Origin: Bryobacter sp. CoA8 C33
GTDB lineage: Bacteria; Acidobacteriota; Terriglobia; Bryobacterales; Bryobacteraceae
Reading direction: 5' to 3'
Length of the DNA stretch: 33,224 nucleotides
Assembly (NCBI GenBank): GCA_019931185.1
Contig: JAINDK010000004.1
Coordinates: 1 to 33,224, forward strand
Shown here: piece after piece, positions 1 through 26,627 of the stretch
Numbering within the stretch: position 1 is the stretch's first letter
Layout of the letters: every line of letters begins with the position of its first letter
Made by a program: the position numbers and the translations under genes
Notes under the pieces: model-generated
What the model saw: only the letters and a program-made list of their open reading frames with translations
Told to the model about the DNA's origin: nothing
Databases searched by the model: none

Positions 1-82
1 GAGGCAGACTCGGCAACCCTTTAAACTCTTCACCCTTGGGGTGAGCCACTTTCCCGCGTCTTCGCTTCGCCATGTGCCTCAT
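1..82 (-). CDS. IS1380-family transposase, N-terminal fragment (partial)
   Basis: This is the first ~27 codons of a transposase reading leftward from ATG at 82, with an alternative ATG at 73. The encoded start is rich in Arg and Lys and is the same peptide as the start of the transposase at 19307, apart from one Gln to Lys change. It has no stop within the window. The position equivalent to the amber codon of the other copy lies beyond the left edge, so I cannot say whether this copy is intact. Confidence 0.7.
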   Translation of the reverse strand, partial: MRHMAKRRRGKVAHPKGEEFKGLPSLP

Positions 83-141
83 TATGCAAGCCTTTCGCGT
101 CACATGCACCACTGGCGGTGGGTTCAACTGCCGTTTCTAGG
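1..141 (-). mobile_element. IS1380-type element, 5' end only (continues off left edge)
   Basis: The reverse complement of bases 1-139 matches the left end of the complete element at 19248-20872 almost base for base. I count two substitutions in the last ~30 bases of the compared stretch (one silent, one Gln to Lys). The outer tip at 126-141 reads CCTAGAAACGGCAGTT on the minus strand. That is the terminal inverted repeat, and CCTAG is a typical opening for IS1380-family ends. The element therefore points left, and most of its transposase gene lies outside the window. It is in inverted orientation relative to the copy at 19248. No target duplication can be assessed because the other end is not visible. 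Confidence 0.85.
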
Positions 142-317
142 ATGAATATGATGGGGTATGGCTGATGATGAAGAACACGTTGAGGACGCTGGCGGCACGA
201 AGGCTTGGCAACGTGTCCAGAGAAGGGATTTTCAGCCGCACCACATTCCGAATGTCACTGTGAAAAAACAAGATGTAGAAACCCCTCCCTAACTGCGGCT
301 CACTGGGTTCAACTTAC
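142..317. other. Intergenic stretch between IS end and permease gene
   Basis: These 176 bases lie between the tip of the left IS copy and the stop codon of the permease gene. Short open frames exist on both strands, but none has a recognisable protein or a good ribosome binding site. I see no strong terminator hairpin. It may be the remainder of the locus interrupted by the IS. Confidence 0.5.
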
Positions 318-1523
318 TTACTCATACCGCAACGCCTCGATCGGGTTCAACTGGCTCGCCCGGTTTGCCGGCAACATCCCAAACACCAGCCCCACGGCAA
401 ACGACACAAAAAACGCCACCACCACCGAGATCGAAGAAATCGCCACCCCAAACTCCGGCACAAGCCACTGCGCGATCAGCGGACCGCTCACGCCAACAAG
501 AATCCCCAGCAGTCCCCCGCCGGTGGAAATCAGGATCGCCTCCATCAGAAATTGCGCCAAAATCACCCGCCGTGACGCCCCCACCGCCATCCTCGTCCCG
601 ATCTCCTTCGTCCGCTCCGTTACCGTCACCAGCATGATGTTCATGATCCCAATCCCGCTGATCACCAGCGCAATCGCCGCCACCATGATCAGCACACCCG
701 TCAGGATCAGACTGATATTCCGCGCCGTCTCAAGGATCGCCCCCAGGTTGTCGACAAAATACTTCGCCCCCTTCCGGTGCCGCCCCTCGAGGATCCGCTT
801 CACCTCCCCCGTCAACGCCTCCACGTCCTCGGCCCGCTTCGCCTGTATGTACATCGGGTCGATCCGCTCCACCCGGTTGTAATAGCGCACCACCGTGATC
901 GGGATCACCGCCGCCCGCTCCGCCAGCTCGCTCAACCCAAAGCTCTGCACCCGTTCCCGAAAAACACCCGTCACTGTAAACTGGTGATCCTTCAGCTTGA
1001 TCGTGCGCCCCACTGCCGCCTCCGCTGTTCCATACAACAGCCGCGCCAGCCCCTCGGTCAGCAGCGCCACCTTCGCCCGCTGCCTTACCTCCGTCCCGTC
1101 GAAATAGCGCCCCTGCAACAGAATCAGATTGCGCACCATCGGATAATACTCATCCACCCCAAGGATGCTTGTGTCCTGCGGCCGGCCCTCCACACTCAGG
1201 CTCGCTGAACTCGACATCGTCGCCGTCACGGCCACGATGCGGTCGGCCAACTGCGCCCGCACCGCCTCCACATCGCTCAGCTTGACGAAATCCGCGTCCG
1301 ACTGGTCCGACTCCCGGCTGCCACTCTCAAAGTACGCCCAAACCACGTTCGAGCCGATTCCCCGGATCTGATCGAGGATGAACTCCGTCGAAGTCAGCGA
1401 GATCGTCACCACCAGAATCACGCTCGCGTTGCCAATCACCAGGCCCAGCGCCGTCAACAGCGTCCTCACCCGGTTCGCCTTCAGCGCCTCCCAACTCGAC
1501 TTCAGAATTTCAGCAATTCGCAT
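318..1523 (-). CDS. MacB/FtsX-family ABC transporter permease
   Basis: A 401-residue inner-membrane permease of the MacB/LolC type. A first transmembrane helix lies near residues 22-46. It is followed by a large periplasmic MacB_PCD domain (about 50-270), then three hydrophobic helices in an FtsX domain near 275-395. The FtsX part shows the family-typical TERTKEIGTRMAVGAS stretch and ends in NPIEALRYE. In known members such permeases work with a MacB-type ATPase and often a membrane-fusion protein, exporting substrates or transducing mechanical force. No such ATPase or fusion protein is in the window. The start ATG has GAGG about six bases upstream, and the gene begins 7 bases after the TPR gene, so it is probably the last gene of the operon descending from 5784. 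Substrate unknown. Confidence 0.88.
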   Translation of the reverse strand: MRIAEILKSSWEALKANRVRTLLTALGLVIGNASVILVVTISLTSTEFILDQIRGIGSNVVWAYFESGSRESDQSDADFVKLSDVEAVRAQLADRIVAVTATMSSSASLSVEGRPQDTSILGVDEYYPMVRNLILLQGRYFDGTEVRQRAKVALLTEGLARLLYGTAEAAVGRTIKLKDHQFTVTGVFRERVQSFGLSELAERAAVIPITVVRYYNRVERIDPMYIQAKRAEDVEALTGEVKRILEGRHRKGAKYFVDNLGAILETARNISLILTGVLIMVAAIALVISGIGIMNIMLVTVTERTKEIGTRMAVGASRRVILAQFLMEAILISTGGGLLGILVGVSGPLIAQWLVPEFGVAISSISVVVAFFVSFAVGLVFGMLPANRASQLNPIEALRYE

Positions 1524-1530
1524 TGCAGCC

Positions 1531-2385
1531 TCAAATCCCCTTCAGCCGGCCCAGCAGCCGCCGTGCCTCACTCTTATGATCGTCCTCCGGCTTTACTGCC
1601 ACGCTCAGATATTGCTCAAGCAGCCGCCGCGCCTCCCCAGGTTCGCGCTTCTGTTCAATCAGCAAATTGGCCCGCTCCCACAGATACACCGGTGAATTTG
1701 GCTCCAGCTTGCGCGCCTGTTCAAAAACACTCTCCGATTCCTGTCCGCGCCCGCGCCGGGCCAGAAACTTCGCCAGGTCGACAACTCTGCCCGCGTCGCG
1801 CGGCGCCAACTCCATGCCGCGCCGCAATTGCGCCTCTGCCGCGCGATAATCCTTCCTCTCCTCCGCCAGCCGCGCATTCGCCCAGCAGCGCTCCACCGGG
1901 TCGACGGCCCCGATCTTCTCCACTAGCCCCTGCGCCTTCTCGAGCCCCCCTCCGAGAAAGCCCGGAGCCTGCATGTAATACTCGAAAAGATCGTTCAACG
2001 CCTCGATGTTGCGCCCATCGAGCGCAACAGCCCGCTCCAGATGCTGTCTCGTCTTACTCGCATAGCCCGGCGCCAAAAACACGCTGGCCAACTCCGCCCG
2101 CCGCCCATAGCTCCGCCCCAGCCACAGCCAGTGCTCGCTGTTGCCCGGCTCAAGCGCCGTCGCCCGCTCAAACGCTTCCGTCGCCTTCCGGTAGTCTTCC
2201 ATCATGAATTGATTCCGCCCCAGCAGGTTCCACACCCCCGCTCCCCGCTCCTTCAGCGATTCCAGCAATCGCAAACTCCCCGCATAGTCCGCCTTCTCAT
2301 ACAAGAGCCGGGCACGCTCAAGCCCCGGGTCCGCGGCCCAGACCGCCGAAACCAGCAAAACCAAGGCCACCCACAGTTTCAACAT
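1531..2385 (-). CDS. Secreted tetratricopeptide-repeat protein
   Basis: A TPR protein of 284 residues from the ATG at 2385. I prefer this start because it opens directly into a signal peptide (MLKLWVALVLLVSAVWAAD, cleavage expected near residue 18). A GTG nine codons upstream at 2412 would put polar residues in front. Several 34-residue helix-turn-helix repeats are recognisable, for example the stretch with ALEPGNSEHWLWLGRSYGR, another around LAPRDAGRVVDLAKFLARRG, and a third around KLEPNSPVYLWERANLL. Such proteins usually scaffold protein-protein contacts, here presumably in the periplasm. It lies 58 bases after the DUF1552 gene and 7 bases before the permease, consistent with one transcript. 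Partner unknown. Confidence 0.85.
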   Translation of the reverse strand: MLKLWVALVLLVSAVWAADPGLERARLLYEKADYAGSLRLLESLKERGAGVWNLLGRNQFMMEDYRKATEAFERATALEPGNSEHWLWLGRSYGRRAELASVFLAPGYASKTRQHLERAVALDGRNIEALNDLFEYYMQAPGFLGGGLEKAQGLVEKIGAVDPVERCWANARLAEERKDYRAAEAQLRRGMELAPRDAGRVVDLAKFLARRGRGQESESVFEQARKLEPNSPVYLWERANLLIEQKREPGEARRLLEQYLSVAVKPEDDHKSEARRLLGRLKGI

Positions 2386-2443
2386 AGTAAGTATTCCGGA
2401 GCCAACCAACACGCCATCAGCCGGCCGCGCTTTCCCCCGGAGA

Positions 2444-3817
2444 TCACCCCCGAATTTCGTTCAACTGCTTCGTGGCGATGCCCACCGGCCGGTCATTCGG
2501 GATACCCGCACAGGCCAGCAGCGTCGTCAACAGGTCTCCCTGGTTGCCCTTCGTATCGGGGAGAAAGCGGCCCGTCTGGATGGCTCCGCCGCCTTTGCCC
2601 GCCAGGATGAAGGGCAGGTTCTCCCGCTCATGGTGCATCCCGTCCTCAAGGCCCGAGCCCCACATCATGATGCAGTTGTCGAGCAGCGTCCCATCGGCTT
2701 CCCGCAGACCATGCATCTTCTTCACCATATAGGCAAACTGCGCCACGTTGAATTGCACAATCGCCGCCACCTTGCGGATCTTTTCAGAATCGCCCTGGTG
2801 ATGCGTTTGCGAGTGGTGCTGGTCGTTGAAGCCGAGCTCCGGATAGGAAGCCCCATTCGGCGTGGAGCCAATGTACGTGCTCACCCGGGTCGTATCGGTC
2901 TGGAAGGCCAGGATGTTCAGATCACACATGATCTGCATGTACTCGCTCCGCTTATCGCCTTCGGGAATCTTGATTTCAATCGGCGCGGAATCGGTGTCGT
3001 ACCGCTTGCTCGCGCGCTGGCCCGCCTTCTCAAGCGCCGCCTCCTTCTGGCGGTGTTCGACGGCGGCGATCCGCCGCTCCACCGAACGCACACTGTCCAG
3101 GTACTCGTCCAGCTTGCGCTGGTCCGATACCGGCAGGCTGCGCCGCAGTTCCCGGGCGCCGCCGAGGACGATGTCGAGCAGACTCCGGTCGAGCGGCTTC
3201 AGCTGAGCTGATTGTCCCCCCGCCCCCTGCTTCTGGAACAGACGGTTGAGCACGTTGCGCGGGTTAACTTCCGCCGGCACCGCCTGCGTCGGCGAGCGGA
3301 AGCTGCAGTGGGAGTAGTATGCCTCGTTCAGGCCCTCCTGATTCTCCTTCCAGGTTTGCGGCATCGTCGCCAACTCGAGCGAAGGCAAAATCGTGAACGA
3401 GCCAATGTGATTGGCGGCGATCTGATCCGCCGAGATCGCGATGCTGATCTGGTTGCGCTTATCGGCGGCCGGCAGCGTCGCCGTCAGCCAGGTCGAGAGT
3501 TCAAGCGCATGCGGCGCGCCGTTGAACGGAGAAATCGGCACACCCGAGATTCCCTTCATCATCAGGCATTGGTCCAGCACCGGCTTGAGCGGCTGCAGCG
3601 CATGCGACGCCGCGCTCAGATAGCTCTCGGCGCTGGCCGGCCAGAATTGTTCCATGATCACGCCATGCGGCATATACATGAAGCCCAGCCGCACCGGTGG
3701 CTTGTATGGCTGTCCCTTCGTGTCCGCCCAACCCATCGTCTCAAGCAGCGGCAGGCCAAGCGACACGCCCAGCCCTTTCAGGCAAGCACGCCGGTTCAAT
3801 CTTTTGCTCTGCATCAT
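2444..3817 (-). CDS. Tat-exported DUF1552 (HXXSHH) family protein
   Basis: A 457-residue protein of the DUF1552 family, whose biochemical role is unknown. The N-terminus has a twin-arginine-like signal: two Arg at residues 9-10 followed by a hydrophobic stretch ([16 protein letters not shown]), so export in folded form is likely. A His cluster at 333-340 (QHHSQTHH) fits the family's HxxSHH-type motif with Thr for Ser and suggests metal binding. Further conserved-looking stretches are near 43-60 ([16 protein letters not shown]) and [13 protein letters not shown] towards the C-terminus. The last resembles the metal-site region of alkaline-phosphatase-like folds. Its start overlaps the stop of the DUF1592 gene by 4 bases, implying translational coupling. 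In Acidobacteriota and Planctomycetota these two families are commonly adjacent. Confidence 0.92.
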
Positions 3818-5784
3818 GGCTGTCTCCTGTTGTCTTCAATACGGCGGTGGGTAAATGGATAACTCGTGACCACGGCGTTCACGATCGACCGCATGCGGTG
3901 GTCATCCGCGGCGATCCCTTCCATCATCTTATCGACCACAATTTCGTCATAGCCCTCCAGCCGCCGCCCAAGAGCGTAGGCCAACAGCCGCTCGACGAGA
4001 TTGCGGCTTATGTCGTTGGCCCGCCCGGCGAGAATCCCCTTGAGATCTTTGGGGCTCGAGAATGATTGGCCCCCGGGCAACTGACCCGCCGCGTCGATCC
4101 GCTCGCCGTTGCTTTCCTGCGTCCGCCACTGGCCAATAGCGTCGAAGTTTTCGAGGCCAAACCCGATCGGGTCCAGAATCTGATGGCAATTCGCGCAGAC
4201 CGGATTCGTGCGGTGCAGTTCCGTGCGTTGGCGCGTCGTGAGGCGGCTGATGGCGGCCCGGTCCTGCTGGTCGAGGGCCGGAACGTTCGGCGGCGCCGCC
4301 GGTACGTGTTCACCAAGAAGTTGCTCGAGCACCCACACCCCCCGCTTGACGGGGCTGGTGCGGTTGGGAAAAGAAGTCGCAGCCAGTATGCCCGGCATCC
4401 CCAGAAGCCCGCCACGGTTCGGGTCCCGCAATTGTATTCTGCGCATCGCCGGGCCCCTTACCACTTTGTCCAGGCCATAGACCGCGGCCAGGCTCTGGTT
4501 CAGATAGGTGTAATCGCCGTCAACGAAGCGCAGCACGCTCTTATCCTCGCGCAGGATGCTCTCAAAAAAGAGGCGCGCCTCGTCGTACATCGCTGCTCGC
4601 AGTGCCGGCTTCATCTGCGGAAACACCGCCGGGTCGAAAACCTGTTTGGCGAGTGCGCCGACGCCCAGCCACTGTGCCCCGAAGCCGTCAAACAACGCTC
4701 GCGAGCGCGGGTGGTCGAGCAGCCGCTTGGTTTGGGCCTTCAAGACCTCCGGTTCGTGCAGGGCGCCACGGTCGGCAAGGCCCAGCAGTTGATCGTCCGG
4801 CATGCTGGCCCAAAGCAGATAGGACAAGCGCGAGGCAAGCTGGTAGTCGTCGAGCCGGACGAGGCCGCTGCTCGGGTTGGCCTCCCCGGCGGGCGTGATG
4901 AACAGAAACTGCGGCGAAACCAGAACGGCCTTGAGCATCAGGTGCAGGCTTTGCTGATAGCTTTGCTTGCTCCTCCCGGCAAGGTCATAGGCGGCAACCA
5001 GCACATCCACTTCCGCCTCCGTCGGTGGCCGGCGGTAGGCCTTGCGGGCCAGCCCGCGGGCGATTTCGCGGGCCGCCGCGCGACGCCTGGCCGGACCCTC
5101 GGGCGCCGTTCCGAATAGCCGTCGCTCGATAGTCGTGGGGGGCGCGCCTCTTGGGGCGGCGATACGTTGCACCACCTTGTCGGCGATCGCCAGATACTGT
5201 TCCAGTTGCAGCGGAGACAGCGAATTGAGATAACCCTCGCCGCTAACCTCATCCGGCAGGCTGTCGGCAATCGACGTAGGCACGCCAAACAGATCGTGAA
5301 GCGTGTTCGCGTATTCGGTCTTTGTCAGCCGGCGGATGACAAACGGTCCCGGGTCCTGCGGGCTCAGATACTTCACCTTGCCCATCCAGTCGATGATCAC
5401 CTGCCGCTCGGCCTCGCTCGGCTGCGGGGCTTCTTTCGGGGGCATATCATGCGCCTTCACCCGGGCCGCCGACCGCTTCCACTGTTCCGTGAACGCCGCA
5501 TGCCCCGGCGCCTTCAGCGCCGGGTCGAAGTTGACACCCGCGCGCGTCGGGCGCCGGTTCTGGTGGCACGGCGTGCAATAAGTCTTGATAACGGGCGTTA
5601 CGCTACCCCGAAAGTAGGCTTCCGCCTCCGCCTTCCGCGCCTCATGATCGATGGCCTGCCCCAGCGCGCCAGTCGCAAGGCAGAATAGAAAACAGAACGC
5701 CCGGGATCGGCTCACGCCCTTAGGTCTATCACAATGACGTGGGTCAGGAAAATCCAAAAACAGATTTCCACTCTCCTCAATCAT
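3814..5784 (-). CDS. DUF1592-group protein with two CxxCH haem-type motifs
   Basis: A 656-residue multi-domain protein with the usual series seen in Planctomycete-type proteins. A cytochrome-like N-terminal part has C70-x-x-C73-H74 (YCTPCHQN). It is followed by DUF1587 (about 150-215), DUF1595 (about 240-300), DUF1592 (about 315-445), DUF1588 (about 455-555) and DUF1585 (about 575-645). A second CANCH motif lies inside the DUF1588 part. The two motifs suggest covalent haem c outside the cytoplasm, probably in electron transfer, though no member has an assigned reaction that I know of. A hydrophobic segment ([16 protein letters not shown]) acts as signal peptide but begins about 29 residues in. 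The GTG at 5715 may therefore be the true start rather than the ATG at 5784. It heads the operon that includes DUF1552, TPR and permease genes. Confidence 0.9.
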
Positions 5785-5897
5785 TTATCCATTCTCTCCG
5801 CTCCCACAGTGAAAGTCTTTCACGGATTGAGCGCGCCGCCCTTCTTGCCCTGTCCATCCTTCCAGAGTGGCTTGTTAAACTTGTGCAAAAGTCAATC
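5785..5897. promoter_or_regulatory. Divergent intergenic region with a perfect palindrome
   Basis: These 113 bases separate two divergently transcribed units, the DUF1592 operon to the left and the small exported protein with aroA to the right. They must hold promoters for both unless transcription starts further inside. The clearest element is GTGAAAG-T-CTTTCAC at 5809-5823, a perfect 7-base inverted repeat around a single central base. That form is typical of a dimeric regulator's operator, and a short RNA hairpin is sterically unlikely. I cannot identify confident -35/-10 boxes. Confidence 0.45.
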
Positions 5898-6287
5898 ATG
5901 CGCCGCATACTGATCTGGATCGCCGTCATGGGCATGCTCGGGGGGGCTCAGGACAAGAAGCCAAAAGGGCCGGAACTGGAATTCGTTCAGGTATCGGTGC
6001 ACCGCGTCGACGACCAGTTGCTCGCCGCCGACGGCAGCATAAAGAATACCAGCATCAAGACCTTGAACAAAGTCCAATTGGTCTTTGAGTTCTTTGCCCC
6101 GGGCAAACAGTCGATCACCATCCAAAAAGGCGCCCCGGAGCCAAATTCCATCGGCCCAGGCGATCTCGTCGAGTTCCACCTCCAACTGCGTGCCCCGGCG
6201 CGGGCCGTCGAGGTTCTCATGGGCGCCGAAGAGGGCTCGGGCCGCGATCTCAGAGTGGGCAAACCGGGCCCTTATCCGGTGGAATAG
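5898..6287 (+). CDS. Small exported protein, FxLYD-like
   Basis: A 129-residue protein from the ATG at 5898. I take this start because it opens straight into a short signal-like sequence (MRRILIWIAVMGMLGGAQ), while the upstream in-frame stretch has no such logic. The mature part resembles FxLYD or DUF3426-like beta-sandwich domains that describe modified interaction with other secreted proteins. The recognisable part runs from an ADGSIKNTS turn through LVFEFFAPGKQ to a GDLVEFHLQL strand. No catalytic residues are evident. The gene ends 19 bases before aroA and is probably co-transcribed with it. Function unknown. Confidence 0.7.
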   Translation: MRRILIWIAVMGMLGGAQDKKPKGPELEFVQVSVHRVDDQLLAADGSIKNTSIKTLNKVQLVFEFFAPGKQSITIQKGAPEPNSIGPGDLVEFHLQLRAPARAVEVLMGAEEGSGRDLRVGKPGPYPVE

Positions 6288-6306
6288 AGAGATAAAGCAC
6301 GCAACC

Positions 6307-7584
6307 ATGTTTGAAACGATTCACCCCGCCGAAGCTGTCTCCGGCGCCATCCGCCTCCCGGGCGACAAATCGATTTCGCACCGCTGGGCGATGATTGCCG
6401 GCATCGCCGAAGGCAAGACCACAATCCATGGCTTCGCGACCGGCGAGGATTGCCATTCCACTCTCGGCATTCTCCAAGCCCTCGGCATCCCCGTCGAAGA
6501 CCGCGGCAGTGAAGTCATCATCGAAGGCCGCGGCCTCGATGGCTTGCGCGCCCCCGCGGGCATGCTCGATGCCGGCAACTCCGGTTCCACCATCCGCATG
6601 ATGAGCGGTATCCTCGCGGCACAACCCTTCGTCTCCCGCATCCACGGCGACGAGTCCCTCGCCAAGCGGCCCATGCAGCGCATCATGACTCCGCTCCAGT
6701 TGATGGGCGCCCAAATCGAGGCCACCAACGGAAAGTACCCCCCGCTGACCATCACCGGCTCTCAATTGAAGGCCATCGATTACACCCCGGCCGTGGCCAG
6801 CGCCCAGGTCAAGACCTGCATCCTCTTCGCCGGCCTCTATTGCCAGGGCGAGACGATCGTTCGTGAGCCCGTGAAGACGCGCGACCATACCGAACTGGCC
6901 CTGCGCATGTTCGGCGCCGACCTGCGCACCGTCGGCCCCGTCATCACCCTCAAGGGCCGCCCCAGGCTCGAAGCCAAGGAACTCACCGTCCCGGGCGACC
7001 TCAGTTCCTCGGCCTTCTTCCTGTCCGCCGCCCTGATGGCCCGGCAATCCAACCTCGTCATCGGCGGCGTCGGGCTCAACCCCACCCGAACCGCCCTGCT
7101 CGACTACCTCGTCAGCATAGGAGCGGAAATCAAAATCCTCAATGTCGGCGAACAGCATGGCGAACTCGTCGGCGACATCCTCGTGCGCGGCTCAGTCAAG
7201 CGCCCGGGCCAGATCACCGGCGCTCTGACAGCCGCCCTGATCGACGAAATTCCCACCCTGGCCGTCCTGGGCGCCGCCACCGAAGGCATTGACGTTCGCG
7301 ATGCCGCCGAGCTCCGCGTCAAGGAGACCGACCGCATTGCCACCGTCGCCGAAAACATGAAACGCGCCGGGATCCGCATGGAGGTGCGCGAGGACGGCTT
7401 CACCATCCCCGGCCACCAGAAGTTCCATGCCGCCGCCTTTGACAGCTTTGGCGATCACCGCATCGCCATGGCCTTCGCCGTAGCCGGCCTTTCCGCCGAC
7501 CGACCCTCGACCATCGAACGGGCCGAGGCCGCTAGCGTGAGTTTTCCCGAATTTTACGATACGCTAAGGCGCATCACCTCCTAG
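6307..7584 (+). CDS. aroA: 3-phosphoshikimate 1-carboxyvinyltransferase (EPSP synthase)
   Basis: EPSP synthase, 425 residues, a normal length. It transfers the enolpyruvyl group of phosphoenolpyruvate to shikimate-3-phosphate in the cytoplasm, the sixth step of the shikimate pathway to chorismate and aromatic amino acids. Visible motifs are the substrate-binding LPGDKSISHR at residues 17-26, LDAGNSGSTIRMM near 87-99, a KRPMQRI loop, VKETDRI, and the C-terminal FGDHRIAMAFA. I chose the ATG at 6307 because the family starts just before the GDKS motif; the open frame extends much further upstream but overlaps the preceding gene. It sits between a small exported-protein gene (19 bases) and a histidine kinase (12 bases), with no other aromatic pathway gene nearby. 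Confidence 0.97.
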   Translation: MFETIHPAEAVSGAIRLPGDKSISHRWAMIAGIAEGKTTIHGFATGEDCHSTLGILQALGIPVEDRGSEVIIEGRGLDGLRAPAGMLDAGNSGSTIRMMSGILAAQPFVSRIHGDESLAKRPMQRIMTPLQLMGAQIEATNGKYPPLTITGSQLKAIDYTPAVASAQVKTCILFAGLYCQGETIVREPVKTRDHTELALRMFGADLRTVGPVITLKGRPRLEAKELTVPGDLSSSAFFLSAALMARQSNLVIGGVGLNPTRTALLDYLVSIGAEIKILNVGEQHGELVGDILVRGSVKRPGQITGALTAALIDEIPTLAVLGAATEGIDVRDAAELRVKETDRIATVAENMKRAGIRMEVREDGFTIPGHQKFHAAAFDSFGDHRIAMAFAVAGLSADRPSTIERAEAASVSFPEFYDTLRRITS

Positions 7585-7596
7585 AACGGCTCACTC

Positions 7597-8226
7597 ATGC
7601 CGGAACGCTTCGAACAATTGACGCTTGCCGGTATCGTACACGACCTCAACAACGTCTTCGAGACTCTCTTCGAAGTCCATGACGTACTCAAAGCCGACCC
7701 CCGCAACGCGCGTGTCTGCGCCTCCATGCGCCGCACCCTCAAACACGGAGCACGCATCGTCAAGAGCCTCGAGGAACAGGGCGGGATGACCGACCCCGTC
7801 CGCCTTCTGGACCAAGTCGAGGCCTTGGTGCGAGACTTTCTCCTCGGCTCGCGCGGGCCCGGCTTGGAAGTCTCCTGCCAGGTAACCGAAGGCTTCCTGC
7901 TGCCCGGCAATCGCGGCGCCTGGGAGCGCGTACTGCTCAACCTGCTGCTCAATGCCGCCCGGATGATGCCCCAGGGTGGCAAGATCGAGGTGAGCATGTG
8001 GCGCGATGGGGCCGACGTAAAGGTCGAGGTGCGCGACAACGGCCCGGGTATCCCCGCAAAGCTGTTGCCCCGGCTCTTCGAGCCAGGCTTCAGCACCACC
8101 CCGCGCCATAAGGGGCTGGGGCTGCATATCGTGCGCACGATCGTCGAAGGCCTCGGCGGCACGGTGGCGGCAACGAACCGCGAAGACGGCCTGGGCGCCG
8201 TCTTCCTGATCCAGGTGCCCGCTTAG
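7597..8226 (+). CDS. Short soluble histidine kinase without sensor domain
   Basis: A 209-residue protein made only of the transmitter core. The phospho-acceptor H-box is LAGIVHDLNN with His15. The ATP-binding domain shows the N-box with Asn119 (LLNLLLNAARMM), the G1 box DNGPGI at 147-152, an F-box-like LFEPGFSTT, and the G2 box KGLGLHIV at 172-179. The H-box type is close to NtrB-like and hybrid kinases. There is no membrane segment and no PAS, GAF or receiver domain, so input must come from a partner. It lies 12 bases after aroA with no adjacent response regulator; the nearest in the window is at 29990. Its 3' end overlaps the convergent deacetylase gene by 4 bases. Confidence 0.85.
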   Translation: MPERFEQLTLAGIVHDLNNVFETLFEVHDVLKADPRNARVCASMRRTLKHGARIVKSLEEQGGMTDPVRLLDQVEALVRDFLLGSRGPGLEVSCQVTEGFLLPGNRGAWERVLLNLLLNAARMMPQGGKIEVSMWRDGADVKVEVRDNGPGIPAKLLPRLFEPGFSTTPRHKGLGLHIVRTIVEGLGGTVAATNREDGLGAVFLIQVPA

Positions 8227-9038
8227 CCGGTTGAATCCGGCAGCCCGCGGTAGCTCGTGAGCGTGATCGCCGCCGCGGCGAGCGCCGGCTTGAGCCGGGC
8301 GTCGGTGAGAGCGGCAAGTTCCGCCGCCCGCGAGTGTTTCAAGCGTGTGCGGGCAGCCAGAAGTTCCGGGCCCAGCTCCCCCGGATGGCACATGAACTCA
8401 GTCGAGCCTGCCGGCAGCCATGCCAGCAGAGCCAAGAGATCGTCGGCCGTATAGGCGCCGGTCCAGAGAAAGCCAGCGAAGTGATCGGTCGAGCGCGCCC
8501 CATGCGCCGCAAGCACCCGGGCGAAGTGGGGCCGCATGCGCGACATCAGACGATTGGCCAGCCGGGTCTTGAGCGAGGCCGGCCGCGTATCGAGCGGCAG
8601 GTCGAAAGGGCGGCGGATGAACGGGATCGCGTATTCCCGGCTGAGCCGCGCTACCGCCTCGAGAACCGGCGGCAGGATGTGTGTGTGCTTGTGCGTATCG
8701 AGGTGCGTGGGCCGGATGCCGGCGGCGAGCACCCGCTCGATCTGTGCCCGCAGTTCGGCGTGTATGTCCCAGACGGGCAGGCTCAGCAGTAGCTGGAGGA
8801 TCGTACCCGGCAGTTCCCGCCCCGGTTGGCTGAGGCTCGCCCCCTGCACCATCTGCAGGTGGACGCCAATGTCAAGCGAGGGATGTTCCCGCGCGAGGGC
8901 CACCGCATCGGCAAAGGCCGCGCCGTTGGCCATGAGCGTCGTCGCGGTAAGGATACCTTCGCGATGAGCGCGAACGATGCCGGCATTGGTGTCGCGCGTG
9001 AATCCGAAGTCGTCGGCGTTGACGATGAGATAGCGCAC
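8223..9038 (-). CDS. ChbG/HpnK (YdjC) family carbohydrate/lipid deacetylase
   Basis: A 271-residue metal-dependent deacetylase of the YdjC fold. The N-terminal VNADDFG (Asp9-Asp10), GVHL with His60, the HLDTHKHTH cluster at 112-120, and the late EFMCHPGE motif are the metal and catalytic residues of the family. ChbG removes acetyl from N,N'-diacetylchitobiose, and HpnK is linked to hopanoid gene clusters; the actual substrate here is not shown. The start is GTG at 9038, overlapping the TAG stop of the MCE gene by one base. It therefore appears translationally coupled to the lipid-transport operon, which favours a lipid-linked or glycolipid substrate. That link is inference. Confidence 0.88.
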   Translation of the reverse strand: MRYLIVNADDFGFTRDTNAGIVRAHREGILTATTLMANGAAFADAVALAREHPSLDIGVHLQMVQGASLSQPGRELPGTILQLLLSLPVWDIHAELRAQIERVLAAGIRPTHLDTHKHTHILPPVLEAVARLSREYAIPFIRRPFDLPLDTRPASLKTRLANRLMSRMRPHFARVLAAHGARSTDHFAGFLWTGAYTADDLLALLAWLPAGSTEFMCHPGELGPELLAARTRLKHSRAAELAALTDARLKPALAAAAITLTSYRGLPDSTG

Positions 9039-10108
9039 TAGAAGAGGGCGAGCTTGATACGGAGGAACTTCTTCGGGTTGGCGCGGAAGTCCTTCATGAG
9101 GCCTTTCATCTCCACCGCCGTACCGTCGAGGTTTTCATAGAGCGAGGGGTTGACCAGCAGTTGGCCCAGCGTGCCTTCGCCCTTGTTGACGCGATCGAGG
9201 ATGCGATCGACCTTGGTGAGGGTGGCCGACAACTGATTGGCGAGGGCCTCGTCCTTGAGCAGCTTGCCGGCCGTGCCTTTCCCAGCGTTGACATCGGCGA
9301 GCATGCGGCGCAGCTCGCTGATGCTTGCCTTCGCCTCGGTATAGACAGAGTCGTCCTTGAGCAGCTTGCCTGCTGTCCCCTGACCGGACTGTATGTCGGC
9401 GACGATCTGATCCATGCGCGTGAGAGTCTTGCGCACATCGTGATACAGGGCGTCGTCGTTGAGCAGTCTGCCCATGGTGCCTTTGTTCGAGTTCAGCGCC
9501 GCGGAAACGTTTTCGACGTCCTTCAAGATGCTGAGAAATCGCCTGTACAGCTCCTCGTCGACCAGCAGCTTGCCGATCGTGCCCTTGCCGGCCTCCACTT
9601 GGCCGACGATGCCTTCGGCCTTGATGAGGATGTTCTGCAGTACGGCGATGGTTTGCGATGCCTGCTTCTGGATGTCCTCGAGCTCGGGGGTAAAGCCGGA
9701 AGGCAGTTCGCCGTTCTTGCTGATCGGCGTGGCTGACTTACCTTTCTTGATGGCGACGAGCTTGGCGCCGAGCAGGTTTTCCGCGCCGACCATAACGGTG
9801 GAATCGCTCGGGATGAGAGGCAGCATGTGGTCGGCGATCTCGAGCGTGAGACGGATGGCGCGATTGGCGCGGTTGTCGCTGGAAAGCGTGATGTCCTCGA
9901 CCTTGCCGACCAGGACGCCGTTCAGCCGGACGGGGGCGTTTTTAAGGAGTCCGCCCGTGGTCTCCAGGTAGGCATAAATCCGGGAGCGCGTCTCGAACAT
10001 GTTGTTCGAACTCGTGATGTAGAAAATGAGAGAGGCGAGCAGCAGAAAGCCGGCGATGGCTAGAAGGCCAACCCGCAACTGCGCCCAACTGGTTTTCTTA
10101 GAAGTCAT
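9038..10108 (-). CDS. MCE-domain (MlaD-like) lipid transport substrate-binding protein
   Basis: A 356-residue inner-membrane-anchored protein. One N-terminal helix (residues 12-32) is followed by an MCE/MlaD domain near 42-122, with the typical GLLKNAPVRLNGVLVGKV stretch. The C-terminal half holds five repeats with GxGTxGxLL cores at exactly 34-residue spacing (starting at residues 174, 208, 242, 276 and 310). These are probably helical and form the stalk or tunnel-lining part. In the Mla system the MCE hexamer accepts phospholipids in the periplasm from the MlaE-MlaF complex. It overlaps the ATPase stop by 4 bases (ATGA) and the deacetylase start by 1. The MlaA, MlaB and MlaC partners are not present here. 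Confidence 0.92.
   Translation of the reverse strand: MTSKKTSWAQLRVGLLAIAGFLLLASLIFYITSSNNMFETRSRIYAYLETTGGLLKNAPVRLNGVLVGKVEDITLSSDNRANRAIRLTLEIADHMLPLIPSDSTVMVGAENLLGAKLVAIKKGKSATPISKNGELPSGFTPELEDIQKQASQTIAVLQNILIKAEGIVGQVEAGKGTIGKLLVDEELYRRFLSILKDVENVSAALNSNKGTMGRLLNDDALYHDVRKTLTRMDQIVADIQSGQGTAGKLLKDDSVYTEAKASISELRRMLADVNAGKGTAGKLLKDEALANQLSATLTKVDRILDRVNKGEGTLGQLLVNPSLYENLDGTAVEMKGLMKDFRANPKKFLRIKLALF
9080..9589 (-). repeat. Five 102-base in-frame repeats in the MCE gene
   Basis: Codons 174-343 of the MCE gene form five units of exactly 34 residues (102 bases each). Each begins with a GKGT-, NKGT-, GQGT- or GEGT-type turn, followed by xGxLLxD/N and a long helix. The core Gly falls at residues 176, 210, 244, 278 and 312. 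The DNA copies have diverged, so this is an old protein repeat rather than a recent tandem duplication. Confidence 0.85.
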
Positions 10109-10965
10109 GCCGGCAGGTACCCTTGATACAACTCCGCACCCGGTTTGGGCGCAGGCTGACGCAATACAAATTGTGACACATAGGGGTCACGGCAGGCTTC
10201 GAGTTCCTGCTGTGTACCGCGGAAGACGTTGCGACCTTCGTTCATGACGAGGAAGGTGGTGCGGAGATTGGCATACTCGCCCCAGGGGGCGGCTCGATAG
10301 ACAGTGTTGCGGTTTTTGTCCCAGCGGTAGTTAGCCATCATGGCGCCATCCTGGTAGCGGTGAGTAACCAGGACGGTGGTGGTGTGACGGATTTCGCGCT
10401 CCTTGACGATGAGAGACATGATGGTGTGCGCGGTGATGGGATCAAGGCCGGCGGTGGGGGAATCGTAGAGAGAGAGTTTGGGGTTGGTGACGCTGGCGCG
10501 GGCGATGCCGACGCGGCGGCGCATGCCGCCGGAGAGTTCGCTGGGGAACTTGTCGAGCGTATGGCCGAGTTCGACGAAGTCAAGGGAGGCTTTGACGCGC
10601 GCTTCGATCTGGTCTTCGTTGGTGTTGGAATTTTTTTGGTTGCGGAGGGGATAGCCGACGTTTTCAGCGATGGTGAGCGAGTCGAAGAGGCCGCCTTCCT
10701 GAAAGAGGATGCCGACTTCGGCGCGGAGGTCGAACATCTCGGATTCCCGGAGGCGGGTAATGTCGCGGCCGAGGAGGCGGATGGAGCCTTCATCGCACTG
10801 GAGCAGGGAGATAGCCAGTTTGAGGAGGAGTGTTTTGCCGGAGCCGGCGGCGCCAAGCAAAATGTACGTGTCTCCAGGCAGCACCGAGAAGGAAACGCCG
10901 GAGAGGACCCGTTTGTCATCAAATGATAGCCCGACGTTGCTGTATTCGAGGATGGGTTCGGCCAT
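10105..10965 (-). CDS. MlaF-like ABC transporter ATP-binding protein
   Basis: A 286-residue cytoplasmic ATPase that would power MCE-type lipid transport. Walker A is GAAGSGKT at 38-45, the Q-loop Gln is at 89 (ILFQEGGLFDSL, as in MlaF/Mce ATPases), the signature is LSGGM at 144-148, and the H-loop His is at 202. The Walker B region reads LSLYDSPTAGLDP, so Asp168 is followed by Ser169 where most ABC ATPases have the catalytic Glu. I use the ATG at 10965, shared with the permease stop as TAATG. A longer open frame upstream is an out-of-frame shadow of the permease gene. The C-terminal ~40 residues extend past the usual ATPase core. Confidence 0.93.
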   Translation of the reverse strand: MAEPILEYSNVGLSFDDKRVLSGVSFSVLPGDTYILLGAAGSGKTLLLKLAISLLQCDEGSIRLLGRDITRLRESEMFDLRAEVGILFQEGGLFDSLTIAENVGYPLRNQKNSNTNEDQIEARVKASLDFVELGHTLDKFPSELSGGMRRRVGIARASVTNPKLSLYDSPTAGLDPITAHTIMSLIVKEREIRHTTTVLVTHRYQDGAMMANYRWDKNRNTVYRAAPWGEYANLRTTFLVMNEGRNVFRGTQQELEACRDPYVSQFVLRQPAPKPGAELYQGYLPA

Positions 10966-11723
10966 TACTGGAGACTCACGAAGATTTGAGTAACAAGCAC
11001 GTCGAGGACGAAGACCCAAACGCTCGCGACGACAACAGCCTTGGTGGTGGCGAGGCCGACGCCCTGCGTACCGCCGGATGTACGCATGCCGTAGAAACAG
11101 CCGACCAGCGAGATGACGATGGCGAAGACGAAGGGCTTGAGCAAACCCTGAACCATGTCGTTTAGCTCGAGCACGTCGATGGCGGAAGTCCAATACTGAT
11201 TGGCGGTGTTGCCGATGACGGAAACGGCAATCAGCAGGCCGCCAATGAGGCCGACGAAGTCGGCGATGGCGGTCAGCAGAGGCTGCATGAAGGCAGTAGC
11301 CATAAGGCGGGGGACGACGAGTTTCTGGATGGGGTCGGTGCCGAGAGCGCGCATGGCGTCGATTTGCTCGGTGACCTTCATGGAGCCGAGCTCGGAAGCG
11401 ATGCCGGAGGCGTTGCGGCCGGCGACGAGGAGGGCGGTGAGGACGGGGCCGAGTTCGCGGATGATGCTGATGGAGACGACTTGGCCGGTTTGGGAAGTGG
11501 CGCCATAGGTGGACAGGGCTCGAGACATCTGGAGCGTCATGACGATTCCGGAGAAAGCGCCGATCAGGGCCACGATGGGGAGGGAGCCAACGCCGATGGA
11601 GTCCATCTGCATGAGGACGTCCCGCCAGTAGATAGGGGGTCTGGTGAGATTGCGAACGCTTCTGCCAGTAAGAACAAGGAAGTCCTGAAAGGTTTGGACC
11701 GGAGATTTGAGGTAATCGAGCAA
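10965..11723 (-). CDS. MlaE-like ABC transporter permease
   Basis: A 252-residue MlaE/YrbE-family integral membrane permease, the membrane core of MCE lipid transporters. Family features include the amphipathic N-terminal part, the SLPIVALIGAFSGIVMTLQ first core helix, IIRELGPVLTALLVAGRNAS, and MKVTEQIDAMRALGTDP, the coupling region that contacts the ATPase. Four to five hydrophobic helices are visible. The start is TTG at 11723, with GAGAGG about 8 bases upstream; no ATG lies nearby in frame. It is the first gene of the operon permease-ATPase-MCE protein-deacetylase. The divergent hydrolase gene begins only 37 bases away, so the promoter must lie in that gap or inside the neighbour. Confidence 0.93.
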   Translation of the reverse strand: MLDYLKSPVQTFQDFLVLTGRSVRNLTRPPIYWRDVLMQMDSIGVGSLPIVALIGAFSGIVMTLQMSRALSTYGATSQTGQVVSISIIRELGPVLTALLVAGRNASGIASELGSMKVTEQIDAMRALGTDPIQKLVVPRLMATAFMQPLLTAIADFVGLIGGLLIAVSVIGNTANQYWTSAIDVLELNDMVQGLLKPFVFAIVISLVGCFYGMRTSGGTQGVGLATTKAVVVASVWVFVLDVLVTQIFVSLQ

Positions 11724-11760
11724 TCCAATAGCCTCTCAGAGGGATGCTAGCATACACATC

Positions 11761-12729
11761 GTGAACGGCCTGAGCGCGATCGAAGGACTGAAGGTGGGGC
11801 ATGCCACGGATCTAGAGGGATTGACGGGCTGCACGGTGGTGTTGTGCGAGAAGGGAATGACGGCGGGGGTAGACATTCGGGGAGGGGCGAGCGGGACGGC
11901 GGAGATCGGGGTGATGGATCCACTGCATGTGACGCCGGTGGTGCACGGGATTGTTCTGGCGGGGGGAAGCGCCTTTGGGCTGGAGGCATCGAGCGGGGCG
12001 AGGCGGATTCTGGAGCAGCAGGGAGTGGGTTTCGAAATGCCGGGGGCGCGGGTGCCCATTGTTCCGGCGGCAATACTGTACGATTTGGGGATCGGCAGCG
12101 CGGCGGCGCGGCCCACACGGGAGATGGGAGAAGCGGCAGCGGCGGCGGCGCTAGGCGCGGAGCCGGGAGCGCGTACCGGGGAGGGAAACGTGGGGGCCGG
12201 CACGGGGGCGACGGTGGGCAAGTATTTTGGTATGGGGCAGGCGATGAAGGGGGGGCTGGGCTGTGCCGCCTGGAAGCTGGGCGGGAAGTGGAATGGGGTT
12301 ACCGTAGCGGCAATGGCGGCGGTGAATGCGTTCGGGGATGTGCTCGATGAGCGGGGGGCTGTACTGGCGGGACTGCGGCGCAGCGGGAGTGGCCGGGTAT
12401 TCGCCGGCACGACGCGTGTGATGCTAGACGGGCTAGAGCCACGGTATGAAGGTGGAAACACGACGCTGGTGGTGGTGGGCACGAATGCGCGCTTGACGAA
12501 GCTAGAGGCAACGAAGCTGGCGCAGATGGCGCAGGCGGGGGTGATGCGCGCGGTGTCACCGGTGCATACAACGCGGGATGGGGATACGCTGTTCGCCGTG
12601 TCGACGGGGGCGGTCGGGGGGATTGATTTGAATTCCCTGGGTGTGGCCGCGGGAGAAGTCGTGGCGGAGGCGATCCGGCGCGGCGTGAGGACGGCGAAGA
12701 CAGCCGGAGGCGTGTTGGGATTGGGGTAA
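11761..12729 (+). CDS. P1/S58-family peptidase (NylC/DmpA-like N-terminal-nucleophile hydrolase)
   Basis: A 322-residue protein of the P1 (S58, DmpA/NylC) family. These enzymes self-cleave to expose an N-terminal nucleophile and act as aminopeptidases or amide hydrolases. The N-terminus has the family-typical LKVGHATD, followed by GCTVVLCEKG and GGASGT. The predicted self-cleavage site is Asn233-Thr234 in GGNTTLVVVGTNA. Thr as nucleophile matches 6-aminohexanoate-oligomer hydrolase NylC (Asn-Thr cleavage) rather than DmpA, which uses Ser. Asn143 and the GEGNVGAGTGATVGK loop are also typical. The start is GTG at 11761, giving an N-terminus that lines up with the family. It has no signal peptide, so it should be cytoplasmic. 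Natural substrate unknown. Confidence 0.9.
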   Translation: MNGLSAIEGLKVGHATDLEGLTGCTVVLCEKGMTAGVDIRGGASGTAEIGVMDPLHVTPVVHGIVLAGGSAFGLEASSGARRILEQQGVGFEMPGARVPIVPAAILYDLGIGSAAARPTREMGEAAAAAALGAEPGARTGEGNVGAGTGATVGKYFGMGQAMKGGLGCAAWKLGGKWNGVTVAAMAAVNAFGDVLDERGAVLAGLRRSGSGRVFAGTTRVMLDGLEPRYEGGNTTLVVVGTNARLTKLEATKLAQMAQAGVMRAVSPVHTTRDGDTLFAVSTGAVGGIDLNSLGVAAGEVVAEAIRRGVRTAKTAGGVLGLG

Positions 12730-12735
12730 GCGGGG

Positions 12736-13218
12736 CTAGGACCGGAGGACGCGGAGCGTGACAGTGAGTTGCCCGAGGTGACGCTGAGTGTGCTCGGCAA
12801 TGTGAGCGAGCAGGGCGCCAAGGGGGACGGGGATGCGGGCGCGTCCGACGTGGCGGAGTTCCGTTTGTGGAGAATTGAGCACAGCGATGCGGGCGCGCCC
12901 CTCAGTGAGGCGCTGCTTGAGAAGGACGATCAGGGTTAGCAGGGGGAGCTGCTCGGTCGTTTCCGTGTCAAGGATCGCGAACTGGCCGGGGGAGAGGGGC
13001 TGCGATTCGGCGTAAGTGAGGAGGCGGTCGAGGGACTCGGCGATGTGGCGGATGTGAAAACCGGCGGAGGTGAGGCCGTGCGGATTGCGCCAGAGGTCCT
13101 CCTCGCCTAAGCCGCTGGTTTGCTCAACGATGTCCTCCTCGGCCTGCTGCAGGGTACAGAGCAGGAGATGGCGCAGCGGATCGAGCGTTAAGGGTTTGTT
13201 TCTTAGCCAGACTTCCAC
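12736..13218 (-). CDS. DinB-family protein
   Basis: A 160-residue DinB/YfiT-like four-helix bundle protein. The probable metal ligands are His55/His58 (FHIRHIAESLDRLLTY) and His143/His147 (AEHTQRHLGQLT). DinB-like proteins bind a divalent metal, and some are thiol-dependent transferases (for example acting on bacillithiol or mycothiol); others have no known reaction. The start is GTG at 13218, as no ATG fits. Its 3' end faces the hydrolase gene with 6 bases between stops, so the two genes converge and are not co-transcribed. Confidence 0.85.
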   Translation of the reverse strand: MEVWLRNKPLTLDPLRHLLLCTLQQAEEDIVEQTSGLGEEDLWRNPHGLTSAGFHIRHIAESLDRLLTYAESQPLSPGQFAILDTETTEQLPLLTLIVLLKQRLTEGRARIAVLNSPQTELRHVGRARIPVPLGALLAHIAEHTQRHLGQLTVTLRVLRS

Positions 13219-15452: not shown

Positions 15453-16742
15453 GTGAGACGGATTCTCGAGGCGCTTCAACGCGCCAGAAGCCATCGCGTG
15501 GTGCGCAATGCGGCGCTGCTGTATCTCGTGCAAATGACGAGCTATCTGTTTCCGCTGTTGATCCTTCCCTATTTGTCACGTGTGCTGTCGCAGGAAAAGT
15601 TTGGCTTGATCGGCTTCTCCCAGATGTTTCTGTTCTACTTTACGATCCTGACCGACTATGGGTTTAACCTGACCGCAACGCGAGAAGTGGCCGTGGAGCG
15701 TGGTAAGCCGGGGCGAGTGAATGAGATTTTTGGCGCGGTGATGGTGGCCAAGGGTTTGCTCGTTGCTCTGGGCTGGGCGATCTTGTGGGTGGTGGTGGCT
15801 GCAACGCCCAAGCTGCGCCCCGATGCGCCACTCTACTTTTGGTCTTATCTGGGCGTGGTGGGCAACTGGTTATTCCCGCTGTTTCTCTATCAGGGGCTGG
15901 AGCGGATGGATCAGGTAGTGAAGCGCGACATAGCCGCCAAGCTACTGGCCCTGCTCCTGATTTTCGGGTTGGTGCGCGGAGATGATCAGTACTTGCTGGC
16001 AGCCGTGGCGCAGCCCGCAGCCGCCTTGCTGTGCGGGTTGCTGGTATTGGGGCGGGTCAAGGGGCTGGGTGTGAGCTGGGCTTGGCCGCAATGGGAGGCA
16101 GTGCGAGATCAGTTGCGGCGGGGGTGGGTACCGTTTCTCGGGTTGGTGGCCGTATCGGGGGCGAGCGTATCCAATGTGGTGGTGTTGGGCCTGATAGCCA
16201 CACCCGTGGAAGTGGCGGTGTTCAGCGGCGCGCAGCGCATTATTATTGCTCTTCGCACACTGGTCGCGCCGGTTTCGACGGCTCTTTATCCTTATGCCAG
16301 TCAGAAAGCGAGCGAGGGAGAGGCGGCTTCGCGGGCGTTTGTACGGCGTTATGTCTGGATGCTTGCCGCGCCGTTTATCTTGTGCGGGGCGCTGTTGCTG
16401 GTGGGCTCGCCGCTGTTGTTACCTTGGTTCTTGGGCGAAAAGTATCGGGAGTCCGTGCCGCTGTTGCAGATCATGGCCATGATTCCGGCACTGCTTTCGA
16501 TTGTGCAGGTTTACTCGACTTATTACATGCTGGCCTGCGGCTACGATAAGGAATGGAGGAAGATTACGCTCGCGGTGGCCGTGTTCAATCTAACACTCAT
16601 GTGCTTGCTGCTCCATGGCATGCGCGGGGCCTTTGCGATTGCCTGGACGTCGCTGGGCACTGAGGCGCTGGCAGCGTTGCTGTACTGGATGTTCTACCGC
16701 CGGCAGTCGCGGATCGTGCTGACTCGTGAGGGTGTGAATTGA
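15453..16742 (+). CDS. Oligosaccharide flippase (Wzx/RfbX-like)
   Basis: A 429-residue multi-pass membrane protein with about 12-14 hydrophobic helices. The N-terminal YLVQMTSYLFPLLILPYLSR and EKFGLIGFSQMF segments are characteristic of the RfbX/Wzx branch of the MOP superfamily. Such proteins flip undecaprenyl-linked oligosaccharide units across the inner membrane for exopolysaccharide or O-antigen assembly. The start is GTG at 15453, with only weak purine richness upstream. Its TGA stop overlaps the TTG start of the next gene (TTGA), so the two are translationally coupled. The glycosyltransferases and polymerase that would complete a Wzx/Wzy system are not in the window. Confidence 0.9.
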   Translation: MRRILEALQRARSHRVVRNAALLYLVQMTSYLFPLLILPYLSRVLSQEKFGLIGFSQMFLFYFTILTDYGFNLTATREVAVERGKPGRVNEIFGAVMVAKGLLVALGWAILWVVVAATPKLRPDAPLYFWSYLGVVGNWLFPLFLYQGLERMDQVVKRDIAAKLLALLLIFGLVRGDDQYLLAAVAQPAAALLCGLLVLGRVKGLGVSWAWPQWEAVRDQLRRGWVPFLGLVAVSGASVSNVVVLGLIATPVEVAVFSGAQRIIIALRTLVAPVSTALYPYASQKASEGEAASRAFVRRYVWMLAAPFILCGALLLVGSPLLLPWFLGEKYRESVPLLQIMAMIPALLSIVQVYSTYYMLACGYDKEWRKITLAVAVFNLTLMCLLLHGMRGAFAIAWTSLGTEALAALLYWMFYRRQSRIVLTREGVN

Positions 16743-26603: not shown

Positions 26604-26606
26604 AAT

Positions 26607-26622
26607 GGGGGAATCATCCCCC
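26607..26622 (+). promoter_or_regulatory. Hairpin between FAD gene stop and TonB receptor start
   Basis: GGGGGA at 26607-26612 pairs perfectly with TCCCCC at 26617-26622 around the loop ATCA. It fills most of the 24-base gap. The 3' arm covers the place where a Shine-Dalgarno would normally sit before the ATG at 26628, and that place is pyrimidine-rich. It could tune receptor translation or mark an RNA-processing site. No U-tract follows, so a simple terminator is unlikely. Confidence 0.45.
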
Positions 26623-26627
26623 TCACT

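Follow-up and report, generated by a model that had tools for sequence, protein, structure and literature searches.

Paired CxxCH-protein and DUF1552 genes in a Bryobacter genome: a conserved partnership with a putatively altered phosphatase-type active site

What might a protein with CxxCH motifs and an exported DUF1552 protein, encoded by adjoining genes, accomplish together? The question is raised by a contig of the 5.05-Mb draft genome of Bryobacter sp. CoA8 C33, the whole 33,224 bases of which constitute the window analyzed here, and which also carries a second gene pair of similar layout. Our best reading, to which we assign a probability of roughly 0.4, is that the first pair encodes a predicted secreted metal-dependent redox module, in which a cytochrome would serve a repurposed phosphatase-fold metalloprotein, DUF1552. 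In the proposed scheme, the hydrolytic nucleophile (Ser, Thr or formylglycine) would have been replaced by an invariant His in both DUF1552 and the DUF1501 protein of the second pair, and the second metal site would have been eroded with the first (M1) left, giving DUF1552 a putative single-metal, all-His site. Working at the cell surface or in the periplasm, this metal centre might carry out redox chemistry on a substrate, perhaps a carbohydrate, with the c-type haem partner as its electron carrier.

The domains and their pairing have been described in the literature, where, in the portions available to us, their function is given as unknown or merely suggested. PSCyt3-PSD genes adjoining a family of unknown genes were reported from metagenome-assembled genomes of Verrucomicrobia (PMC5615132; Pfam PF07586/PF07631/PF07627) with a domain set and gene pairing identical to those found here, whereas neither a fold nor an active-site analysis is given in the accessible part of that report, and the two unknown families are not linked there. 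The regulation of these domain genes in Rhodopirellula has been described (PMC2754498, consulted as an excerpt), and Kamneva et al. 2012 is cited for DUF1501 modules in the available sections of PMC4452313 and PMC4960237. The excerpts retrieved by our literature search held neither a reaction for these pairs, nor a statement of the present fold for DUF1552, nor one of a His replacing the nucleophile. The pair is hence already in print as unknown, and the altered active site looks new. Such pairs are numerous, with about 59 in this genome. Homology together with one altered active-site position would reduce two families of unknown function to a single question (which metal and which substrate are involved, and whether haem is needed), and redox chemistry, if true, would be new chemistry on a classic hydrolase fold.

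A conserved gene pair and its distant kin

The two pairs consist of the following genes.

3814-5784, minus strand: CxxCH protein of 656 residues; Pfam DUF1587/1595/1592/1588/1585; CTPCH at residues 70-74 and CANCH at residues 530-534
2444-3817, minus strand: DUF1552 (HXXSHH) protein of 457 residues; Pfam E 2e-80 with the whole profile covered; twin-arginine signal NRRACLKG
21045-23195, plus strand: DUF1549+DUF1553 protein of the second pair, assigned by Pfam; single CxxCH at residues 235-239
23192-24586, plus strand: DUF1501 protein of the second pair; Pfam E 6e-120; twin-arginine signal

In the first pair, DUF1587-1595-1592-1588-1585 lie on one gene and DUF1552 on the next, the composition of the PSCyt3-PSD/DUF1552 module, and no NCBIfam family was matched by any of the four paired proteins. 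An earlier note on this DNA, made from the sequence alone, had described a four-base overlap of the DUF1592-group and DUF1552 genes, which the coordinates of the open reading frames (ORFs) confirmed (bases 3814-3817). The two CxxCH motifs of the former protein and the Tat-like signal and His cluster (HHSQTHH) of the latter were likewise all present, and the layout was indeed repeated at 21045-24586, where the ORFs again overlap by 4 bp (bases 23192-23195) and the CxxCH protein has one CxxCH. The note had also taken the occurrence of both kinds of pair in one 33-kb window as suggesting a shared scheme. This co-occurrence proved ordinary, because the genome contains 13 DUF1552 and 46 DUF1501 matches, besides 13 DUF1592 and 47 DUF1553 matches (one of the DUF1501 matches being a contig-end fragment, and the DUF1553 matches including one gene in two pieces); of the 13 DUF1552 genes, 5 have a DUF1501 gene within 21 kb, versus about 4 expected from density when contig ends are ignored.

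Gene-neighbourhood statistics, which the note had proposed as a check, showed that the cytochrome-type and DUF1552 genes form a conserved, co-diverging pair. Within this genome, all 13 cytochrome-type genes are followed directly 3' and on the same strand by a DUF1552 gene. The 79 foreign loci, which represent the best 80 among 588 relatives, were seeded by the cytochrome gene, and lone DUF1552 genes are therefore uncountable among them; after four loci cut by a contig end were left out, DUF1552 was found directly 3' of the cytochrome gene in 63 of the 75 uncut loci. Orthologues of the window DUF1552 protein (80-85% identity, E ≤1e-100) occurred in 15 of 60 relatives, the own genome excluded, and a cytochrome gene adjoined the orthologue in all 15. 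When the neighbours in 92 loci were clustered, the two clusters of the pair appeared in 88 and 70 loci and the next cluster in 13. Across the 13 cytochrome-DUF1552 pairs of this one genome the partner distances were correlated with an r of 0.85, and across the DUF1501 pairs (19 of the 46 used) with an r of 0.96; in both cases none of 5000 permutations reached a value as high. For the second kind of pair, a DUF1553 match lay within 3.5 kb of 46 of the 46 DUF1501 matches, and 1 of the 47 DUF1553 matches was without DUF1501. One locus (L111, G000:C2:1-6000) has DUF1501 before its DUF1549/DUF1553 partner, the inverse of the usual order.

The two family pairs had been regarded in the note as unrelated, and here it did not hold. 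In hhalign comparison with the signal peptides removed, DUF1552 matched DUF1501 with an E of 7.6e-7 and a score of 57.9 (none of 60 column permutations scored above 25.0), and the profiles accordingly place the two families as distant homologues. A probable cytochrome domain at the N-terminus is common to both CxxCH families (hhalign E 7.5e-17). In the DUF1549/DUF1553 family of this genome the N-terminal CxxCH is present in 12 of 22 ORFs (a 254-residue fragment left out and one cut ORF included) and missing from the window's copy. Between the cores of the CxxCH proteins, hhalign gave local matches only (E 5e-5 to 5e-4, against a null best of 0.034), and since the segments follow in a different order, common descent of the cores is suggestive rather than established.

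Predicted fold and altered active site of the DUF1552 protein

The AF2 model of the DUF1552 protein (predicted local distance difference test score, pLDDT, 85; predicted TM-score 0.86) has a predicted alpha/beta fold of the alkaline-phosphatase superfamily. Foldseek matched it to sulfatases and LtaS, with a choline sulfatase best (E 2e-5), and the VIA comparison placed phosphodiesterases and then sulfatases at Z 15.8-17.7 among the 50 rows listed, the top matches covering 246-250 residues at 3.4-3.5 Å. The protein resembles sulfatases and nucleotide pyrophosphatase-phosphodiesterases in fold (Z up to 17.7) and in its C-terminal half, which aligns with same-genome sulfatases at E 5.4e-5, the corresponding DUF1501 match having E 1.1e-10 (both without a permutation control); it differs from them in an apparent His for Ser, Thr or formylglycine, in an apparently eroded second metal site and in a cytochrome-like neighbour gene. 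The match of DUF1501 to phosphodiesterases (hhalign E 0.0013) covered a C-terminal stretch only, with an unreliable active-site register. The sulfatase alignment comprised 21 rows from 25 loci, two of which (L138 and L151) matched the motif pattern close to the N-terminus, perhaps wrongly; for phosphodiesterases 8 of 20 loci were used, and partial rows were left out of alignments A7 and A8. Pfam may already assign DUF1501 to the alkaline phosphatase clan. In a PDB sequence search run on the window proteins, P0001 and P0002 (the DUF1552/CxxCH pair) gave no match and six chance-level matches (E ≥1.1), respectively, and P0004 gave four weak matches, sulfatases first at E 0.24.

As for export, both Arg residues of the twin-arginine signal (R9 and R10) were kept in 89 of 89 DUF1552 proteins, drawn from a conservation set of 90 in which sequences with at most 330 profile columns were left out, and the genome encodes TatC. 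By these sequence features, the DUF1552 protein is a predicted substrate of the twin-arginine translocation (Tat) system.

In sulfatases, the motif C-x-P-S-R is followed by TG, and its Cys becomes the formylglycine nucleophile. The window DUF1501 protein reads H-x8-T-G and the window DUF1552 protein H-x8-T-A (family consensus H-x8-T-G), and the alignments placed His143 of the former and His103 of the latter on the sulfatase CxPSR Cys. The S1 sulfatase CxPSR signature is missing from the window DUF1552 protein, where it aligned with H-A-x. None of 100 permutations was as good as the DUF1501 His143-sulfatase segment, nor as good as the DUF1552-DUF1501 segment, in which His falls on His. This His was invariant (H103 in 89 of 89 DUF1552 proteins, H143 in 38 of 38 DUF1501 proteins), so that, by alignment, His stands where the alkaline phosphatase superfamily has its Ser, Thr or Cys nucleophile.

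The candidate M1 ligands (Asp, His and His in the superfamily) were mapped by profile and by their sequence order. In DUF1552, H335 was kept in 89 of 90 proteins and H339 and H396 in 90 of 90; in DUF1501, H143, D328, H330, E370 and H385 were invariant in 38 of 38. The last metal His aligned between the families (H396 with H385). The stretch between the strands carries D-x-H in DUF1501 (38 of 38) and H335-xxx-H339 in DUF1552; by chain order, we take it to correspond to the D-xxx-H of phosphodiesterases. One metal would probably find an all-His set in DUF1552 (H103, H335, H339 and H396), and D, H and H plus the nucleophile-column His in DUF1501. The superfamily's second site (M2) has an Asp after strand 1 and, later, Asp-His/Asn. 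At these columns, position 51 of DUF1552, ahead of G52, is mostly N or H, and GSGL is commonest where the sulfatase has SDNG, while DUF1501 has G63 and, at the SDNG place, E370-F371; the mapping of the first Asp is of low confidence. Judged from these columns, both families seem to have an eroded second metal site.

The same evidence bears on a reading without redox chemistry, which we consider unlikely though worth keeping in view: DUF1552 would be an atypical hydrolase or transferase of the alkaline phosphatase superfamily, with His103 acting on a phosphate, sulfate or phosphonate ester as covalent nucleophile or general base, and the cytochrome-like partner would bind or sense. It accords with the listed fold neighbours, which are hydrolases and transferases, with an invariant His in the nucleophile column, and with the pairing of DUF1501 with DUF1800, a protein free of CxxCH that is treated below. 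The apparent erosion of the second metal site in both families argues against it, and two CxxCH motifs so strictly conserved in the partner would be hard to explain without haem. A broader version of the redox proposal, namely that DUF1552 and DUF1501 are an ancient alkaline phosphatase branch that abandoned ester hydrolysis to become a large class of secreted oxidoreductases, mostly with a dedicated cytochrome c, is also doubtful, if somewhat less so. In that version, a fixed histidine would have taken over from the nucleophile, one metal site would have disappeared, and the other (all His in DUF1552) would have turned into a redox centre.

The CxxCH partner and the haem question

CxxCH is the canonical motif for binding haem c. 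Over 101 aligned homologues of the CxxCH protein, C530, C533 and H534 of the second motif were kept in 101 of 101, as were H524, D538 and G541; among the homologues with a letter there, C70 and C73 of the first motif were kept in 97 of 98 and H74 in 98 of 98. Met114 (of MPP), a candidate distal Met, was kept in 99 of 101, and CxxCH plus a conserved distal Met is the sequence mark of a c-type cytochrome. PSCyt1 scored above the Pfam cut-off in two paralogous cytochromes (L006 and L012), and the genome encodes c-type cytochrome assembly proteins of the Ccm/Ccs type (PF01578, three matches). The N-terminal region of the CxxCH protein is probably a c-type cytochrome. The second CxxCH sits in the large helical core, where a haem is likely.

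In the AF2 model of this protein (pLDDT 90.5), residues 1-13 and 16-19 have pLDDT below 50, and translation may in fact begin downstream of the annotated ATG. The best VIA row was the cytochrome c peroxidase YhjA (9qdt; Z 8.5, 87 residues, 2.7 Å), which was the only row at Z ≥8. Foldseek returned no match at E ≤0.001, which does not make the core a new fold.

These observations could also suit an arrangement in which the enzyme, peroxidase- or oxygenase-like, would be the CxxCH protein, and DUF1552 would assist it in folding, metal loading or substrate binding. The larger helical core of the CxxCH protein is strictly conserved (six residues from H524 to G541 are kept in all 101 homologues), the best structural row is a peroxidase, and DUF1552 was not directly downstream in 12 of the 75 uncut foreign loci. 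The YhjA match, running over 87 residues of which the first is 57 and the last 495, is therefore read as mainly the N-terminal domain, and no peroxidase similarity of the core appeared in the VIA rows; we hold this arrangement to be improbable. We give similarly little credence to a structural zinc- or iron-type Cys2His2 site formed by the second CxxCH and H524, with only the N-terminal domain being a cytochrome. The invariance of all four residues (H524, C530, C533 and H534) would fit such a site; the motif is, on the other hand, the canonical one for haem c, and a CxxCH is also invariant in 21 aligned DUF1549/DUF1553 proteins.

The DUF1800 branch bears on how general haem is in these systems. 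DUF1800 genes of relatives, read in 20 loci of best matches, had DUF1501 directly downstream in 19 of 20, like the pairs described above, and unlike them the DUF1800 partner lacks CxxCH (19 of 19 proteins, L127 with an internal stop being left out). The Pfam model of DUF1800 had a DUF1553 gene of the present genome as a sub-threshold match (E 1.8e-4), and hhalign of DUF1800 against DUF1553 gave E 7e-4 with a score of 39.8 versus at most 22.4 in 60 permutations; by these profile scores the two look related. A relation between the CxxCH core and DUF1800 is not claimed (E 0.007, score 31.4, versus a permutations' best of E 0.012 and 29.5). A twin-arginine motif on DUF1501 is already in print (in the available part of PMC5122149).

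The note had proposed that a haem-type protein exchanging electrons with a folded, metal-binding exported partner was the scheme shared by both pairs. The pairing, the export signals, the probable cytochrome c domain and the invariant His set speak for such a partnership as far as they go. As a scheme for all these systems it is weakened: since one partner of DUF1501 lacks CxxCH, haem would be a strong habit of these systems and not their common principle.

Several points weigh against the secreted redox module that we prefer. On the DUF1552 side, the 50 Foldseek rows shown had model-normalised TM-scores of just 0.24-0.42 and large root-mean-square deviations, and hhalign of DUF1552 against phosphodiesterases gave nothing significant. 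The register of His103 on the sulfatase Cys was equalled in 4 of 100 permutations, which is weak alone, and the observed active-site segments were aligned under a looser setting than their permutations; the DUF1552-DUF1501 alignment may also be shifted by one residue at the central motif, where H330 faces H340 instead of H339. On the partner side, the YhjA match is small and its Z modest for a helical domain, the Cytochrome_CBB3 match of the window protein lies below the Pfam cut-off (24.9 versus 27 bits), and the second CxxCH could, with H524, form a Cys2His2 metal site. The CxxCH-free DUF1800 partner counts on the same side, as does the fact that co-divergence is equally expected from pairs that merely duplicate together. 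As for the 12 foreign loci in which the cytochrome gene lacks a directly downstream DUF1552, pieces of DUF1552 lie 0.8-1.1 kb downstream in L017 and L083, the gene lies 4-9 kb downstream in L028 and L032, L056 carries its copy on the other strand, and in the remaining 7 none was seen within the locus. Finally, sulfatase genes were not enriched near the pairs, 6 of 30 lying within 10 kb versus at most 5.3 expected (30 of the 35 listed matches were used, five partial ones being left out), although the accessible portion of PMC5615132 reports them as co-localised in some Verrucomicrobia.

If the redox module is real, carbohydrate is the best guess for its substrate, because a paralogous 1208-residue cytochrome (L012:9685-13311) carries a lectin-like Laminin_G_3 domain inserted between DUF1587 and DUF1595, because PSCyt genes with carbohydrate-binding modules have been reported (PMC5615132, available part), and because DUF1800-DUF1501 genes are located with chitin synthase genes in some bacteria (PMC5122149, likewise).

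Spread of the pair and neighbouring genes

Pairs were found in Planctomycetota, Verrucomicrobiota, Acidobacteriota and other phyla. The nearest relatives of the window DUF1552 protein are from Acidobacteriota, including Bryobacteraceae, and in the DUF1552 tree it falls in a 19-row group (Verrucomicrobiota 8, Planctomycetota 6, Acidobacteriota 4, window 1) with a support of 100/100, the bootstrap not having settled. Members of this group are 71-83% identical to the window protein, and its 12 paralogues only 24-36%. Across the three phyla its orthologues are 71-85% identical, far closer than its own paralogues, a closeness that points to gene transfer or to very strong constraint, with binning errors as another possible source.

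Beyond the DUF1552 gene, two further genes adjoin the pair in this window, outside the module.

1531-2412, minus strand: TPR protein
318-1523, minus strand: MacB/FtsX-type permease

The earlier note had seen the pair's strand continue into a secreted TPR protein and an FtsX-type permease, and this was found as described, with gaps of 31 and 7 bp. Its suggestion that they are the scaffold and the membrane part of a larger complex acting together with the cytochrome and DUF1552 finds in its favour only the shared strand and these short gaps, and is very improbable. No window-type TPR (E 1e-5) was found in the other 12 own-genome pair loci or in the 79 foreign loci, some of which are cut short, and the window-type permease (E 1e-5) gave one match in the same loci, upstream, in L031. 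The TPR gene (E 1e-20) is present in 55 of the 60 relatives, 41 of which are without a DUF1552 orthologue. Of the 29 relatives' loci read, 25 have it next to FtsX, and two of the remaining four break off near the gene. In all 14 relatives that have both, the TPR gene and the DUF1552 orthologue lie on different contigs; the best TPR match is only 34-42% identical in several of the 14 and may not be the orthologue, and is 46-69% identical in G001, G003, G005, G011 and G030. The TPR and FtsX genes, which are independent of the pair in relatives and adjoin it in no other genome examined, are unrelated neighbours, and we reject them as module parts in favour of a unit of their own, unlinked to the pair elsewhere.

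Rfam and transfer RNA scans gave no match, and a promoter and terminator scan of bases 1-6500 found 0 and 2, respectively, below shuffled sequence. Elsewhere in the window, a DDE transposase gene lies upstream of the second pair (19496-20848, plus strand). The region 3' of that pair (24675-29978, plus strand) encodes an FAD-dependent oxidoreductase (PF12831) and then a 1116-residue TonB-receptor-like barrel (OMP_b-brl_4), both of which possibly share an operon with it. On the minus strand, YdjC-like, MlaD and ABC ATPase genes are consecutive at 8223-12821, a row that partly resembles a lipid-transport cluster and includes a 361-residue frame (11736-12821) without a Pfam match. A 558-residue frame at 16739-18415 (plus strand) matches both formyltransferase and polysaccharide deacetylase domains, an apparent fusion.

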